IMG/VR virus record: IMGVR_UViG_3300007504_000079
Span: 1 to 21,016 of that record
Direction: 5' to 3' (one strand)
Source of the DNA: a virus
DNA: 21,016 nucleotides
Below are positions 13,276-20,772 of this stretch, one piece after another (position 1 is the stretch's first letter; every line of letters starts with the position of its first letter). The notes under the pieces were generated by a model that was given only the letters and a program-made list of their open reading frames with translations, did no database searches and was not told the origin of the DNA. The translations under genes were made by a program, and so were the position numbers.

Positions 13276-14025
13276 ATGGCAAAAAATTTGACAGATAAGC
13301 AAACCCAAGAATTGGCACTAGCCTCTTTTGAGGAGGATGCAGGAATTGGTACTGAGGACATGAGCAAGGACGATCTGGTTCTTCCCTTCTTGCGAGTAGC
13401 TCAGAAAATGAGTCCTATTCTTGATGAGGACGATGGCCAGTATAATCCTGAGGCAAAGGTTGGGATGTTTTATAATACTGCAACCGGAAAGCTCTATAAC
13501 TCGGTTAGGGTAGTTCCAGTATATTACTCTAGAACCGCCTTAGAGTGGGCCCCAAATGGTGGAGGTTTTGTGGCAGAACACCCTATAACTATCTTGGATA
13601 CCTTGGAGCGAAATGACAAAGGAAAGTATCTTAAGGGAGAGAATGTAGTGGATGATACTCGTCAACACTATGTATTTATCATTAACGAGGATGGTTCTTA
13701 TGATCCTGCCCTTCTTTCCCTCTCTTCTACTGGTATCAAGACCTCTCGTAATTGGAATACCATGATGAGAAACCTTAAGATACAGGGAGCAAACGGTTCT
13801 TTTAATCCCCCTATCTTCTCTCAGATTTATGGGCTTACCACCGTTTCACAAAGCAATGACTTTGGTACTTGGAAGGCAATTCATGTAGCTCACGAGGGAT
13901 CTATTACTACTCCTGAACTCTATACTGAGGTCAAGCAAGCTCACGATAGCTTTGCAGCTGGAGAGGCAAAGGTTGATTATAATGAGAATGTAGATAAGAA
14001 AGAGTCCTCATCTGAAGAGTATTAA
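13276..14025 (+). CDS. Putative single-stranded DNA-binding protein
   Basis: The 249-residue product has SKDDLVLPFLRVAQKMSPIL (about residues 30-49), then a beta-rich core (GMFYNTATGKLYNSVRVVPV at about 63-82, YYSRTALEWAPNGGGFV after it) and SLSSTGIKTSRNWNTMMRNL (about 149-168). The tail is acidic (DYNENVDKKESSSEEY). This pattern belongs to a common phage family next to replication genes that is often annotated as ssDNA-binding or left hypothetical. The acidic C-terminal tail is typical of SSB proteins such as T7 gp2.5 and suggests protein-protein contacts. The function is inferred from context and tail, not from a known catalytic motif. Its ribosome site lies in a hairpin loop. Confidence 0.6.
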   Translation: MAKNLTDKQTQELALASFEEDAGIGTEDMSKDDLVLPFLRVAQKMSPILDEDDGQYNPEAKVGMFYNTATGKLYNSVRVVPVYYSRTALEWAPNGGGFVAEHPITILDTLERNDKGKYLKGENVVDDTRQHYVFIINEDGSYDPALLSLSSTGIKTSRNWNTMMRNLKIQGANGSFNPPIFSQIYGLTTVSQSNDFGTWKAIHVAHEGSITTPELYTEVKQAHDSFAAGEAKVDYNENVDKKESSSEEY

Positions 14026-17150: not shown

Positions 17151-17570
17151 ATGCTAAAGATAAAAAGAACAAGCGAAGATGCAATTATTCCCACAAGAGC
17201 AAATACTGGAGATGCAGGATATGATGTATATTCTCCAGTTAGTCAACAGATAATTGGAGGAGGAGATGTAAAGATACCTCTTGATTGGAAATGTTCTTTT
17301 CCTTCTGGTTATGCTATGGTATTCTTTAATAAATCAGGACGAGCTACCAAGGATAAGCTAATTGTAGGAGCAGAAGTTGTGGATTCTGGCTACCGTGGAA
17401 TTGTGCATGCTCACTTATTTAATCTAGGACAAGAAACCATTTATATCCATAAGGGGGAGAAAATTACTCAATTTCTTATGCTAAGGATCAATACTCAGGA
17501 AATCGAAGAAGTAAATTTTTTAGACGAGACAGATAGAGGAGAAGGTGGTTTTGGGAGCAGCGGACTATGA
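17151..17570 (+). CDS. dut: dUTPase (trimeric type)
   Basis: It converts dUTP to dUMP and pyrophosphate, keeping uracil out of DNA and feeding dTMP synthesis. All five motifs of trimeric dUTPases are visible: motif 1 GDAGYDVYSP (20-29), motif 2 NKSGRATK (60-67), motif 3 VVDSGYRGIV (76-85, catalytic D78), motif 4 GEKITQFLM (102-110) and motif 5 RGEGGFGSSG (129-138). The 139-residue length is standard. Motif 2 has N and R at positions usually P and L/R, and motif 3 has G rather than D before Y; these are small deviations. Its stop overlaps the next ATG (ATGA), placing it first in the 17151-20772 operon. Host dCTP/dUTP branches could both feed it. Confidence 0.93.
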   Translation: MLKIKRTSEDAIIPTRANTGDAGYDVYSPVSQQIIGGGDVKIPLDWKCSFPSGYAMVFFNKSGRATKDKLIVGAEVVDSGYRGIVHAHLFNLGQETIYIHKGEKITQFLMLRINTQEIEEVNFLDETDRGEGGFGSSGL

Positions 17571-18673
17571 CTACCAAATATAAGATGGGATCTAATCTTC
17601 GGCTAGATATGCTAGAGGGGATTATTGATCTGAACTGTAAAGAAGGAACAACCAATCTTATTAATGAGTTTTACGGTTCGATTAGACAGGATGCTTGGTT
17701 ATCAGCTAGACCAGAATTTAGACTTCCTGATCTTGAAGATGCAGAACTAGAAAACTATGTTAAGGAATGTAATGATCTGAATATTACCTTTAACTATACC
17801 CTTAATACTATCTCACCTGGTAGCAAGGAATTTCTTGCTAAGAATAAAAAAAGAATACAGGATAGACTTAGATATCTGATTGATATTGGGATAGGCCGGA
17901 TCACCATGGCACATCCTCTGCTGATGGAACTTTTGAGAGAGATTGATTCAAACTTTCCTCTTGAGGTATCCACCATTGCGGAAGTTCGAACTATCTCGCA
18001 GATTCGATATTACAAGGATATGTACAATGCAGACAAGATTTGTCTTGCTTTAGAAAGGAATCGGGATATATCCTGGCTAGAAGAGGCAGCAAAAGTAGCC
18101 AATGAAATAGAAGTTAATCTTGAATTACTGGCAAATGAATTTTGCATGGTAGGGGCAGAAGGTTATACCACTCCATGTACCTATCGAACTTCTTGTTATG
18201 AAGCTCATGCTACCGATACCACTCAGGAATCTGCGGAGAACTTTAACTGCTATCCCATGGACCGCTGCATGACAGCTAGGGCTCAATCCAAATCGGCATA
18301 TTTGAAATCTAAATTTATCCGACCAGAGGATGTTAAGCGATACCATGATATTGGTATTCGTCATATGAAGATTACTGGTAGAACGGGATCAACGGATTAT
18401 ATTCTCAAGATGGCTGAGGCTTATCTTGCAGAAAAATATGAGGGAAACCTATTAGGTTTGTGGAAACAGCTGGATACTATCTATAATCATAAGTCTGAAT
18501 TGGAAGATAATACCGGAATCTACATTGATAATCGTGAGCTAGATGGTTTTATGAATTACTGGTTTCAAAAGAGAGATTTCCGTTGTGCTGAAAAAGATTG
18601 TGGTTATGAGTGTAGCTACTGTGATAATTTCTTAGAATGGGGGGAGAAGCGCGAGGTCTTCTTTGAAAAATGA
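17567..18673 (+). CDS. U32-family Fe-S protein (RlhA/TrhP/UbiUV superfamily)
   Basis: The 368-residue product follows the U32 TIM-barrel pattern: an opening GIIDLNCKEGTTNLINEFYG..., a 'yvt.N' strand (FNYTLN, 75-80), RITMAHPLLMELLRE (111-125) and EVSTIAEVRTISQI. It then has LELLANEFCMVGAEGY followed by the cysteine set C204, C210, C228, C234, matching the 'Ga.C...gRCy.S....n...C...CR' 4Fe-4S motif of the family. Established U32 proteins catalyse O2-independent hydroxylation: RlhA of cytidine in 23S rRNA, TrhP of uridine-34 in tRNA, UbiU/UbiV in ubiquinone synthesis. Despite the old name 'peptidase', proteolysis is unlikely. A second cluster, CX4CX3CX2C (340-352), ends the protein. Coupled in ATGA overlaps on both sides to dUTPase and the kinase, it may act on nucleotides or nucleic acid. 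Confidence 0.8.
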   Translation: MTTKYKMGSNLRLDMLEGIIDLNCKEGTTNLINEFYGSIRQDAWLSARPEFRLPDLEDAELENYVKECNDLNITFNYTLNTISPGSKEFLAKNKKRIQDRLRYLIDIGIGRITMAHPLLMELLREIDSNFPLEVSTIAEVRTISQIRYYKDMYNADKICLALERNRDISWLEEAAKVANEIEVNLELLANEFCMVGAEGYTTPCTYRTSCYEAHATDTTQESAENFNCYPMDRCMTARAQSKSAYLKSKFIRPEDVKRYHDIGIRHMKITGRTGSTDYILKMAEAYLAEKYEGNLLGLWKQLDTIYNHKSELEDNTGIYIDNRELDGFMNYWFQKRDFRCAEKDCGYECSYCDNFLEWGEKREVFFEK

Positions 18674-19560
18674 TAATACTAGAAGGACCAGATGGCAGTG
18701 GTAAATCTCATCTCTTGGAGAGAATGAAAAAACCAGACTCCGCCTTTTATAGATGGGGGAAACGACACTATTCCAAGTCAGATTTCAGATGGATGCTACA
18801 TGATCTTTGGGCAGATCCAGATAGATTTATCTATGATAGAGCCTATTTATCTGAACAGATTTATGGGCCCTTATTAAGAGATGAAGATAAAATCGGTAAA
18901 TCGGGCAGAAGGATGTTGGATAGAGTTGCTCTTTCTAAGCAAGGGATAGTAGTATTATGCATTCCCCCCTTTGAGGTAGCGAAGAAGGCCTGGGCTTCTA
19001 GGAAGGAAGAGGAACTTATTCAGGATGGTAATTTATATAATCAACTTTACTCAGAATATTTATCCCTTGAAACAGATCTTCCTATCATACAATATGATTG
19101 GACCGTGGATACCTATATGGATCTCGAGAGAAGAATCCTCGAGGCCATGCCAAATAAAAACCTAGGTTACGGGATAGGGAATTACAGTGGTAGCAGCACT
19201 CTACTAGTAGGAGACATGGTAAAGCACAGGGGGCAGTTCGAGGCTTGTTTTTGTTGGGATCAGGGTAGTGCTCCATGGTTAGCTGATAAACTAGAAGAGG
19301 CTAGTATTCCAGAGGATAGACTATACTGGATTAATGCAAGAAACTATCTAGGACGAGTCAATCCAGCAGATTTTATCGAGAAGATGAACCCTGAAAATAT
19401 AGTTGCCCTTGGAAATAAAGCAGCGAGTTGGTGTGATAACAACAGCTTAGCCTATGAAAAGGTAAAGCATCCACAGTATTGGAAGAGATTTAAGAGTAAA
19501 GAAGAATACCCATTAATACCATTGCTAAAGGAGAGGATAAGTGGTTTACAATATTATTGA
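18670..19560 (+). CDS. P-loop nucleotide kinase fused to a UDG-like domain
   Basis: Residues 1-155 are a thymidylate-kinase-like domain: P-loop EGPDGSGKS (5-13), a DR motif in FIYDRAYLSEQIYG (53-66), and a lid-like ASRKEEE (109-115). Residues about 165-290 form a uracil-DNA-glycosylase-superfamily-like domain: TLLVGDMVKHRG (177-188), WLADKLEEASIPEDRLYWIN (203-222), ENIVALGNKAASW (242-254) and KHPQYWKRF (266-274). This is the order GE-pocket, helix, yitN, P.iivaLG.A, HPs..rr of family 4-like UDGs. The GE.PG motif and usual catalytic residues are altered, so glycosylase activity is doubtful; nucleotide or base sensing is possible. Natural nucleotide kinase activity (dTMP, dUMP or modified dNMP) is inferred. 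ATGA overlap with the U32 gene. Confidence 0.78.
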   Translation: MIILEGPDGSGKSHLLERMKKPDSAFYRWGKRHYSKSDFRWMLHDLWADPDRFIYDRAYLSEQIYGPLLRDEDKIGKSGRRMLDRVALSKQGIVVLCIPPFEVAKKAWASRKEEELIQDGNLYNQLYSEYLSLETDLPIIQYDWTVDTYMDLERRILEAMPNKNLGYGIGNYSGSSTLLVGDMVKHRGQFEACFCWDQGSAPWLADKLEEASIPEDRLYWINARNYLGRVNPADFIEKMNPENIVALGNKAASWCDNNSLAYEKVKHPQYWKRFKSKEEYPLIPLLKERISGLQYY

Positions 19561-20353
19561 TAAGTTTTGGATTCTTCCCGCCATCATAAAGGGAACAAGA
19601 GAGGTAATCTGGGAAAATAGGGGGGAATTTCCTTACTTAGAGGATATCTGGATTAAGGAAAAATTACTTACTGAAAAAGGAAACTTAACTTTTCTAGGAG
19701 AGGAAACGATCGAATGTCTAGATCTTTTTGAATATGAACTTCGATTGGTTCAATCTCAAGTTAATGAACCTAGACCAGAGACTATTCCTGAAAACTATAG
19801 TTTATTGAGATCAGGACTAGCAGCTTATACTGAGGAATTTCTTTTACCTTATTGGAGAGATATTGTTAAGGCCCAAAGCTTTAATAAGAAAGAAGCAAAG
19901 GTTTTAGATTATGGAGGAGGAGCGGGGCAGTATGCTATAGAATACCGCTCTCTCTATCCTAATTCTGAGTGTTTTATAGCAGATAAGGCAGATCCCAAGA
20001 CAGAAGAGGATATCGAGTATATCCCCGTTGATTTTCGATACAATCCTAATTGGTATCATCATTGGGAAGAGAGATTTGATCTTATTCTACTCAATGAAGT
20101 AATGCATCTAGGAGATGAACTCCATGACTATCTCCTACAATCATCTAAAGAGATGCTTAAGCCAGGGGGATATCTCATTGTAGGAGAGCAGTTGCCAAAC
20201 CCTAGATTTAACTGGAGAATGGCAGCATATACTGAGAACGGACGGTGTCTCTCTCCCCACGAGCTTAATGAGATGGCCAGGAACAATGGTTTAAATCCTC
20301 ATTTTTCTTCAGCCATAAATGGCAGTCATTACTTTTCAGTACTACAAAAATGA
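19541..20353 (+). CDS. SAM-dependent methyltransferase, O-methyltransferase-like
   Basis: GTG at 19541 is preceded by AAAGGAGAGG inside the kinase gene (20-nt overlap). The 270-residue product has an N-terminal helical region with LTEKGNLTFLGEE (43-55), reminiscent of the winged dimerisation domain of small-molecule O-methyltransferases. A class I SAM fold follows: motif I VLDYGGGAGQ (121-130), motif II CFIADKAD (144-151), FDLILLNEVMHLGDELHDYL (179-198) and LKPGGYLIVGEQ (206-217). DvGGGtG and 'hvlHdw.de' are hallmarks of the Methyltransf_2 group, which methylates hydroxyl oxygens. The hallmark DNA C5 or N6 motifs (PCQ, DPPY) are absent. Sitting two genes after a putative hydroxylase and immediately before dCMP deaminase, it may methylate a hydroxylated pyrimidine. 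Its stop overlaps the next ATG. Confidence 0.82.
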   Translation: MVYNIIDKFWILPAIIKGTREVIWENRGEFPYLEDIWIKEKLLTEKGNLTFLGEETIECLDLFEYELRLVQSQVNEPRPETIPENYSLLRSGLAAYTEEFLLPYWRDIVKAQSFNKKEAKVLDYGGGAGQYAIEYRSLYPNSECFIADKADPKTEEDIEYIPVDFRYNPNWYHHWEERFDLILLNEVMHLGDELHDYLLQSSKEMLKPGGYLIVGEQLPNPRFNWRMAAYTENGRCLSPHELNEMARNNGLNPHFSSAINGSHYFSVLQK

Positions 20354-20772
20354 TTAGACCTGACATAGATGCCTACTTCATGGAGATGGTTCAACTTGTA
20401 GCAAAAAGAGCTACCTGTGTTCGTCGCCAGGTGGGTTGTATACTGGTCTCCAACCGCGGACACATCTTAGCAACTGGGTATAACGGAGTTCCCAGCGGGT
20501 TTCCTCATTGTTTGGATAAACCTTGCAAGGGAGCTACTGCTAGTTCTGGGAAATCTTTAGATGATTGTTTAGCTATTCATGCAGAACAAAATGCTCTTCT
20601 TCAATGCTCCGATGTTAATCTAATAAAAACTGCTTATGTAACTACTAGCCCCTGTATTACCTGTACTAAACTATTAATGAATACCAGTTGTGGTAGAATA
20701 GTATTTCTGGAGGAATATCCGCATTCACGATCAAAAGAAATTTGGCAGGGGGAGTGGACTCGGTATGCCTAG
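20350..20772 (+). CDS. dCMP deaminase
   Basis: It deaminates dCMP to dUMP. Zinc-site motifs are clear: HAEQNALL with H77 and E79, and SPCITC with C102 and C105. GYNGVPSGFPHC (43-54) matches the allosteric or substrate segment of T4-type dCMP deaminases, and the 140-residue length is normal. With dUTPase it makes dUMP by two routes; no thymidylate synthase is seen in this window, so dTMP synthesis may rely on the host or on genes outside. A role on a modified dCMP cannot be excluded. The start is an ATGA overlap with the methyltransferase. Confidence 0.93.
   Translation: MIRPDIDAYFMEMVQLVAKRATCVRRQVGCILVSNRGHILATGYNGVPSGFPHCLDKPCKGATASSGKSLDDCLAIHAEQNALLQCSDVNLIKTAYVTTSPCITCTKLLMNTSCGRIVFLEEYPHSRSKEIWQGEWTRYA

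Follow-up and report, generated by a model that had tools for sequence, protein, structure and literature searches.

Phage DNA with an oxygen atom at C5 of cytosine is already known. RB69 and NP carry arabinose on cytosine C5 via oxygen (PMC13390438), the genome of LC53 is arabinosylated (PMC12409353), and in the DNA of Thanatos a deoxypentose is bound to cytosine, with fragment masses that point to a C5 oxygen (PMC12838424). Pyrimidines in RNA are hydroxylated at C5 by the U32 proteins RlhA and TrhP, which need prephenate for this, and in Bacillus subtilis the 5-hydroxyuridine (ho5U) is O-methylated by TrmR/YrrM, encoded together with U32 genes in the operon trhP1-trhP2-yrrM (PMC6599085). Here, we analyze a five-gene operon at positions 17151-20772 of the virus record IMGVR_UViG_3300007504_000079, which combines a U32 gene with genes for a nucleotide kinase and a methyltransferase. 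The window analyzed is the whole IMG/VR record of 21,016 bases, probably a genome fragment.

On the basis of sequence comparisons, we consider it fairly probable that the operon serves to supply the phage DNA with a modified pyrimidine deoxynucleotide, with 5-hydroxylation by the U32 protein (deoxycytidine monophosphate, dCMP, being the favored substrate), charging by the kinase, and a methyl cap in place of the sugar. Relative to the known phages with C5-oxygenated cytosine, it would be novel in its set of enzymes and in its cap. The context lends good support to U32 hydroxylation of a pyrimidine nucleotide as part of DNA modification, and moderate support to the methyl cap. The hydroxylation had been suggested in a preliminary description of this DNA, and two independent comparisons now speak for it, namely the presence of the U32 protein in phages with 5-O-glycosyl-cytosine and its place in the hydroxymethylase slot of a cassette built around the kinase fusion. 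The features of the operon are as follows.

17151-17570, + strand: dUTPase (trimeric dUTP diphosphatase family); PF00692, 5.6e-28; TIGR00576 above cut-off; ribosome-binding site CCGGAGG upstream
17567-18673, + strand: U32-family protein, viral clade phrog_5757; PF01136, 7.2e-14; phrog_5757, 1.6e-122
18122-18268, + strand: U32 core motif Glu186, Cys193, Cys204, Cys210, Cys234, from the alignment with E. coli TrhP, RlhA, UbiU and UbiV; invariant in 12 of 12 phage U32 proteins
18584-18622, + strand: clade-specific C-terminal Cys knuckle C340-x4-C345-x3-C349-x2-C352; invariant in the aligned phage U32 proteins, missing in the compared E. coli ones
18670-19560, + strand: kinase fusion, consisting of a deoxynucleoside monophosphate (dNMP) kinase, thymidylate-like (residues ~1-155), and a C-terminal domain of uncertain nature; phrog_761, 1.7e-11; YorR 2axp profile, 1.6e-6
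19541-20353, + strand: class I S-adenosylmethionine methyltransferase; Methyltransf_23 PF13489, 1.1e-12; Methyltransf_2 at cut-off
20350-20772, + strand: dCMP deaminase; PF00383, 9.8e-22; phrog_174, 7.4e-40; translation contains the zinc motifs HAE and PCxxC

The five open reading frames (ORFs) run head to tail, with ATGA overlaps at three of the four junctions and a 20-bp overlap between the kinase and methyltransferase genes, where AGGAG lies upstream of a GTG start. These overlaps, together with the domain searches, confirm the coupled arrangement in the preliminary description, coordinates included. Its dUTPase and dCMP deaminase labels hold as well, with family profiles above cut-off and, in the deaminase, the zinc motifs.

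The U32 protein and its occurrence in phages

PF01136 (Peptidase_U32) gives the second gene product 52.1 bits against a curated cut-off of 22.4, and phrog_5757, 'peptidase' by its database name, gives 410 bits. In the structure prediction, the best match of the AlphaFold model to a solved structure is 5d88, itself a U32 protein (E 1e-5, TM 0.39/0.56), although the model is modest (pLDDT 67, pTM 0.72). The U32 identity and TIM-barrel fold are thus borne out. Homologues with 46-49% identity were found by tblastn in 218 GenBank phage records, T-even-like where checked, and a T-even U32 query likewise yields 218 records, 130 of these at at least 99%; the identity between the window protein and the T-even U32 proteins is 46-47%. 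The clade motif NEFC-x5-GYTT-x-C, present in the window protein, matches 13 viral contigs. A search of 84,980 genomes of prokaryote species for it gave no match, and bacterial members of the clade were not found. The clade is common in phages, but it is mislabelled 'peptidase' in databases; judged by its gene context, the window protein is not a protease. The preliminary description knew of no such phage system, which still applies to the make-up of the operon but not to the U32 clade itself.

The U32 protein of MT838955 was considered as a further member and rejected, being a different, typical U32 protein. A weak match (3.9e-6) links the window protein to phrog_2895, a phage family with no function assigned and perhaps another group of viral U32 proteins.

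The window protein has 14-21% identity to E. coli TrhP, RlhA, UbiU and UbiV. In TrhP, the residues E162, C170 and C177 are essential according to mutants (PMC6599085); E162 corresponds here to E186, C170 to C193 (shifted by one column) and C177 to C210, and C234 is an extra cysteine. Compared to the E. coli proteins, the phage clade also has an insert and the C-terminal four-Cys knuckle, possibly a second metal site. The long extension of RlhA is not apparent in the alignment, and the scores in NCBIfam lie below the equivalog cut-offs (24.3 of 440 bits for UbiU and 21.3 of 534 for TrhP, RlhA not being among the matches).

We now consider the phages with sugar-bearing cytosine. RB69, LC53, Thanatos-1 and Thanatos-2 all encode the U32 clade, and in every T-even phage examined the gene lies inside a cluster of pentose-isomerase-like or nucleotidyltransferase genes, together with a homologue of the RB69-type thymidylate synthase (TS). 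In most of the T-even phages with U32, a chorismate mutase domain, the only one in the genome, is encoded directly or almost directly after it. Chorismate mutase is the enzyme that makes prephenate. It accompanies U32 in nine of ten U32 phages and is found in none of six phages without U32 (T4, JS10, Konradin, AXL3, PW916 and ctUtU524); the Fisher p of 0.0009 is uncorrected for relatedness and, the phages being related, serves only to describe the pattern. The U32 and mutase genes are also paired in Thanatos, where they lie on the opposite side of the TS gene. As for the mutases, six of the eight E. coli active-site positions compared (R11, R28, K39, E52, S84 and Q88) are kept in all seven aligned phage proteins, while R51 and D48 are changed. 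Since TrhP and RlhA require prephenate and the mutase adjoins U32, prephenate use by the phage U32 protein as well would be the simplest interpretation.

Two side observations concern the mutase. In Mosigvirus, the gap between U32 and TS, where other T-even phages code for it, holds an apparently unrelated ORF of 79 residues with no detectable family (L002:11149-11388); as a candidate chorismate mutase it was not supported. JS10 and Konradin lack the mutase as they lack U32. The Acinetobacter host of Konradin is strictly aerobic, as one would expect for an alternative that needs O2, but JS10 infects E. coli.

A third U32 lineage is found in a 230-kb jumbo-phage contig of IMG/VR (L035, L043), with 44% identity to the window protein and 51% to that of LC53. 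Its gene comes directly after that of a homologue of the RB69 nucleotidyltransferase-kinase (28%, E 1e-47), and nearby are genes for a homologue of a 299-residue T-even protein (phrog_3891; E 3e-8), a dNMP kinase, a YfbR-like nucleotidase and a dUTPase. Together with a ThyA gene, these make up a predicted pentosylated-pyrimidine cluster (L043:9137-17035), in the order ThyA, phrog_3891 protein, nucleotidase, dNMP kinase, nucleotidyltransferase-kinase, U32, dUTPase. Canonical ThyA is the only TS family member in the contig, in which neither an RB69-type TS homologue nor a chorismate mutase was found; for this contig and for the window, prephenate would therefore have to come from the host. RB69-type TS and U32 are thus separable both ways, as the contig has U32 only, while JS10 and Konradin have TS only. 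That the two come separately is the best indication that the hydroxyl may be supplied by U32 alone. It is also why we keep, by analogy with TrhP and TrhO, a model in which an O2-independent route would stand beside another one.

The kinase fusion and the methyltransferase

The first part of the kinase fusion is a P-loop kinase with a DR motif, related to thymidylate kinase (TMPK) but scoring below the NCBIfam TMPK cut-off. The C-terminal domain matches the uracil-DNA glycosylase (UDG) family PF03167 weakly (E 0.15, 12.6 against 24.3 bits, one of four members matched), and a PDB profile search gave no meaningful match for it. The kinase half of the earlier kinase-UDG label is accordingly supported by phrog_761 and YorR, and the UDG half is tentative.

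Full-length relatives of the fusion were found in three other phages only, AXL3, PW916 and ctUtU524, at 28-35% identity. In all three, consecutive genes code for a nucleoside triphosphate (NTP) pyrophosphohydrolase, the kinase fusion, a pyrimidine hydroxymethylase of the TS type and a dCMP deaminase, and a methyltransferase gene lies upstream; a marine phage has a short version (NTP hydrolase-kinase-TS-deaminase). The order in the window is dUTPase-U32-kinase fusion-methyltransferase-deaminase, with U32 in the slot of the TS-type hydroxymethylase.

The upstream methyltransferase of the cassettes is 79% identical between the otherwise distant ctUtU524 and PW916 (L022:8691-9440, L004:4602-5426, L023:934-1758), and 73% identity to a Nitrospira protein has been reported in the AXL3 study (PMC7504290), which suggests recent spread.

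The window methyltransferase had no match in GenBank phages. It scores 22.3 bits with the aromatic O-methyltransferase family Methyltransf_2 (PF00891), exactly at the cut-off of 22.3, and better with Methyltransf_23. Around VMHLGDE/VLHDWAD it aligns weakly, in register (E 0.04), with hydroxyindole O-methyltransferase 4a6d, in which the His of this motif is catalytic. As TrmR/YrrM shares an operon with U32 genes and methylates ho5U, O-methylation of the new 5-hydroxyl group would be a natural guess for the window enzyme. Of the O-methyltransferase proposed in the preliminary description, the class I methyltransferase is thus confirmed, and the O-methylation stays a prediction, given the Methyltransf_2 score at threshold and the weak 4a6d alignment.

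Elsewhere in the window there are genes for portal, terminase, DNA polymerase A, helicase and primase proteins, and positions 13276-14025 code for a member of the Pam3 gp34 family (PF23977, 1.3e-58), named after phage Pam3. No close relatives of the phage were found in IMG/VR with the methyltransferase or kinase protein, DNA-level searches gave nothing beyond a 170-bp deaminase match, and a defence-system library gave generic matches only.

Proposed pathway and alternatives

In the proposed pathway, the U32 protein would hydroxylate C5 of a free pyrimidine deoxynucleotide, likelier dCMP than deoxyuridine monophosphate (dUMP), without O2; prephenate drawn from the host would be its co-substrate, and its conserved cysteines would hold an Fe-S cluster or another metal. 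The methyltransferase would then cap the 5-hydroxyl group to give 5-methoxy, where RB69-type phages use a pentose, and the kinase fusion would ready the modified nucleotide for polymerisation by phosphorylating it. Competing nucleotides would be cleared by the dUTPase and dCMP deaminase, which would also feed the dUMP/dTMP supply. A wider and more tentative proposal, which we find possible without leaning towards it, is that there is a separate viral class of U32 proteins that use prephenate, and no O2, to hydroxylate pyrimidine deoxynucleotides in free form, probably dCMP, in some phages together with a chorismate mutase of their own, and that the DNA of the window phage has a 5-methoxy-pyrimidine. 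We know of no natural DNA with such a base. If true, this would give a function to the 'peptidase' of hundreds of sequenced phages, add deoxynucleotides to the RNA and quinone substrates of U32 chemistry, predict a new DNA base and suggest how phages could oxidise bases without oxygen. In the U32 reaction, prephenate may be either oxygen donor or cofactor, and with a small-molecule deoxynucleotide as substrate this chemistry would be much more accessible to study than with tRNA or ribosomes.

It is important to point out that several observations weigh against the proposed pathway. A serious caveat is that the synthesis of 5-hydroxy-dCMP in T-even phages has been assigned to the TS homologue, named 5-hodCMP synthase, and not to U32 (PMC13390438). 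This TS is present in every T-even U32 phage with an examined neighbourhood, and JS10 and Konradin carry it, along with pentose-type genes, without U32. Given this assignment and these two phages, U32 may be auxiliary in T-even phages. For the window, the corresponding scenario would be that a TS-family 5-hydroxy-dCMP synthase encoded outside the 21-kb fragment performs the hydroxylation, while U32 tunes or assists it, or replaces it only when oxygen is lacking. We judge this unlikely, as the 230-kb contig has U32 and pentose genes with canonical ThyA only, and the window U32 gene occupies the TS-type slot of the kinase-fusion cassettes, although both records may be fragments. Furthermore, neither chorismate mutase nor TS was found in the window, itself a fragment, and Mosigvirus, the exception among the ten phages, has U32 without a recognisable mutase. 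The AlphaFold model of the U32 protein is poor around the cysteines, and the single-sequence model of the methyltransferase reaches a pLDDT of only 36. Finally, the AXL3-type methyltransferase was compared with the window one as a candidate orthologue and rejected; the two being non-orthologous, the parallel with those cassettes is not to be pressed on this point.

Turning to the base that is modified, the discriminating position in the TS superfamily is Asn for dUMP and Asp for dCMP, T4 gp42 having Asp. Asp is found in all T-even homologues, in the TS-type enzymes of AXL3, PW916 and ctUtU524, and again in that of the marine phage (LGLPYD). The PW916 enzyme (L023:3280-4098) is annotated as a deoxyuridylate hydroxymethyltransferase, yet its Asp suggests dCMP. 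Of 37 restriction enzymes, 35 fail to cut AXL3 DNA, and cleavage is confined to A/T-only sites (PMC7504290). The Asp and this cutting pattern favor cytosine, and the early emphasis on dUMP is weakened by them, AXL3 DNA resisting enzymes with G/C sites; the dUTPase and deaminase in the operon leave room for uracil as the less likely base. In the uracil version, which we find somewhat unlikely, the dUTPase and dCMP deaminase that flank the cluster would provide dUMP, U32 would convert it to 5-hydroxy-dUMP, and methylation would yield 5-methoxy-dUMP to replace thymine. The absence of an identified dCTP-specific pyrophosphatase among the window genes scanned would fit this, as would the action of TrhP on uridine (PMC6599085), but the T-even relatives modify cytosine, and T4-type phages pair a dCMP deaminase with cytosine modification. 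The B. subtilis operon described above could suggest, further, that U32 and the methyltransferase act together on tRNA of the host or the phage, turning ho5U into 5-methoxyuridine (mo5U) to aid translation. This we regard as improbable, in view of the low identity to U32 proteins acting on RNA or quinones, the missing RlhA extension, NCBIfam scores of 21-24 bits at best against cut-offs of 440-534, the lack of a TrmR or CmoB match in the NCBIfam search, and the deoxynucleotide-enzyme neighbours in all three lineages. A protease or a quinone hydroxylase of the UbiU/UbiV type is hardly credible: the database names 'peptidase' and 'collagenase-like' and a weak UbiU profile match (1.5e-5) point that way, but that match reaches 24 of the 440 bits needed, the context is one of deoxynucleotide genes throughout, and no quinone genes were seen nearby. 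Host tRNA modification and quinone chemistry, both offered as alternatives in the preliminary description, are thus unsupported.

Comparison with known systems

With the arabinosyl-hydroxycytosine systems of RB69, LC53 and related Straboviridae, and the pentosyl-cytosine system of Shewanella phage Thanatos, the window shares the U32 clade and a nearby nucleotide kinase; the final base of these phages has oxygen on cytosine C5. The window differs by the methyltransferase inside the operon, and arabinose isomerase, nucleotidyltransferase, chorismate mutase and RB69-type TS were not found in its 21 kb; more generally, no genes for pentose synthesis or transfer were found among the ORFs scanned in this fragment, some small ORFs lying outside the scan. 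The AXL3, PW916 and ctUtU524 cassettes resemble the operon in the full-length kinase fusion, the dCMP deaminase, an NTP-cleaning enzyme and a methyltransferase, whereas the window has U32 for the TS-type enzyme, dUTPase for the MazG-like hydrolase and a non-orthologous methyltransferase.

In the cellular systems, TrhP-TrmR (mo5U in tRNA) and RlhA (5-hydroxycytidine in 23S rRNA), the substrates are RNA; the phage clade is set apart from them by an insert, the additional Cys knuckle and an identity of 14-21%. In common are the U32 fold, the Glu/Cys counterparts, and, as predictions in the case of the window, the pyrimidine C5 chemistry and the logic of combining U32 with an O-methyltransferase. 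CmoX of Synechococcus phage S-B43 transfers a carboxymethyl group straight to cytosine C5, with no mention of a U32 protein (PMC12783734); this phage DNA modification is borrowed from the uridine 5-oxyacetic acid (cmo5U) pathway of tRNA and needs prephenate, as is proposed for the pathway described here.

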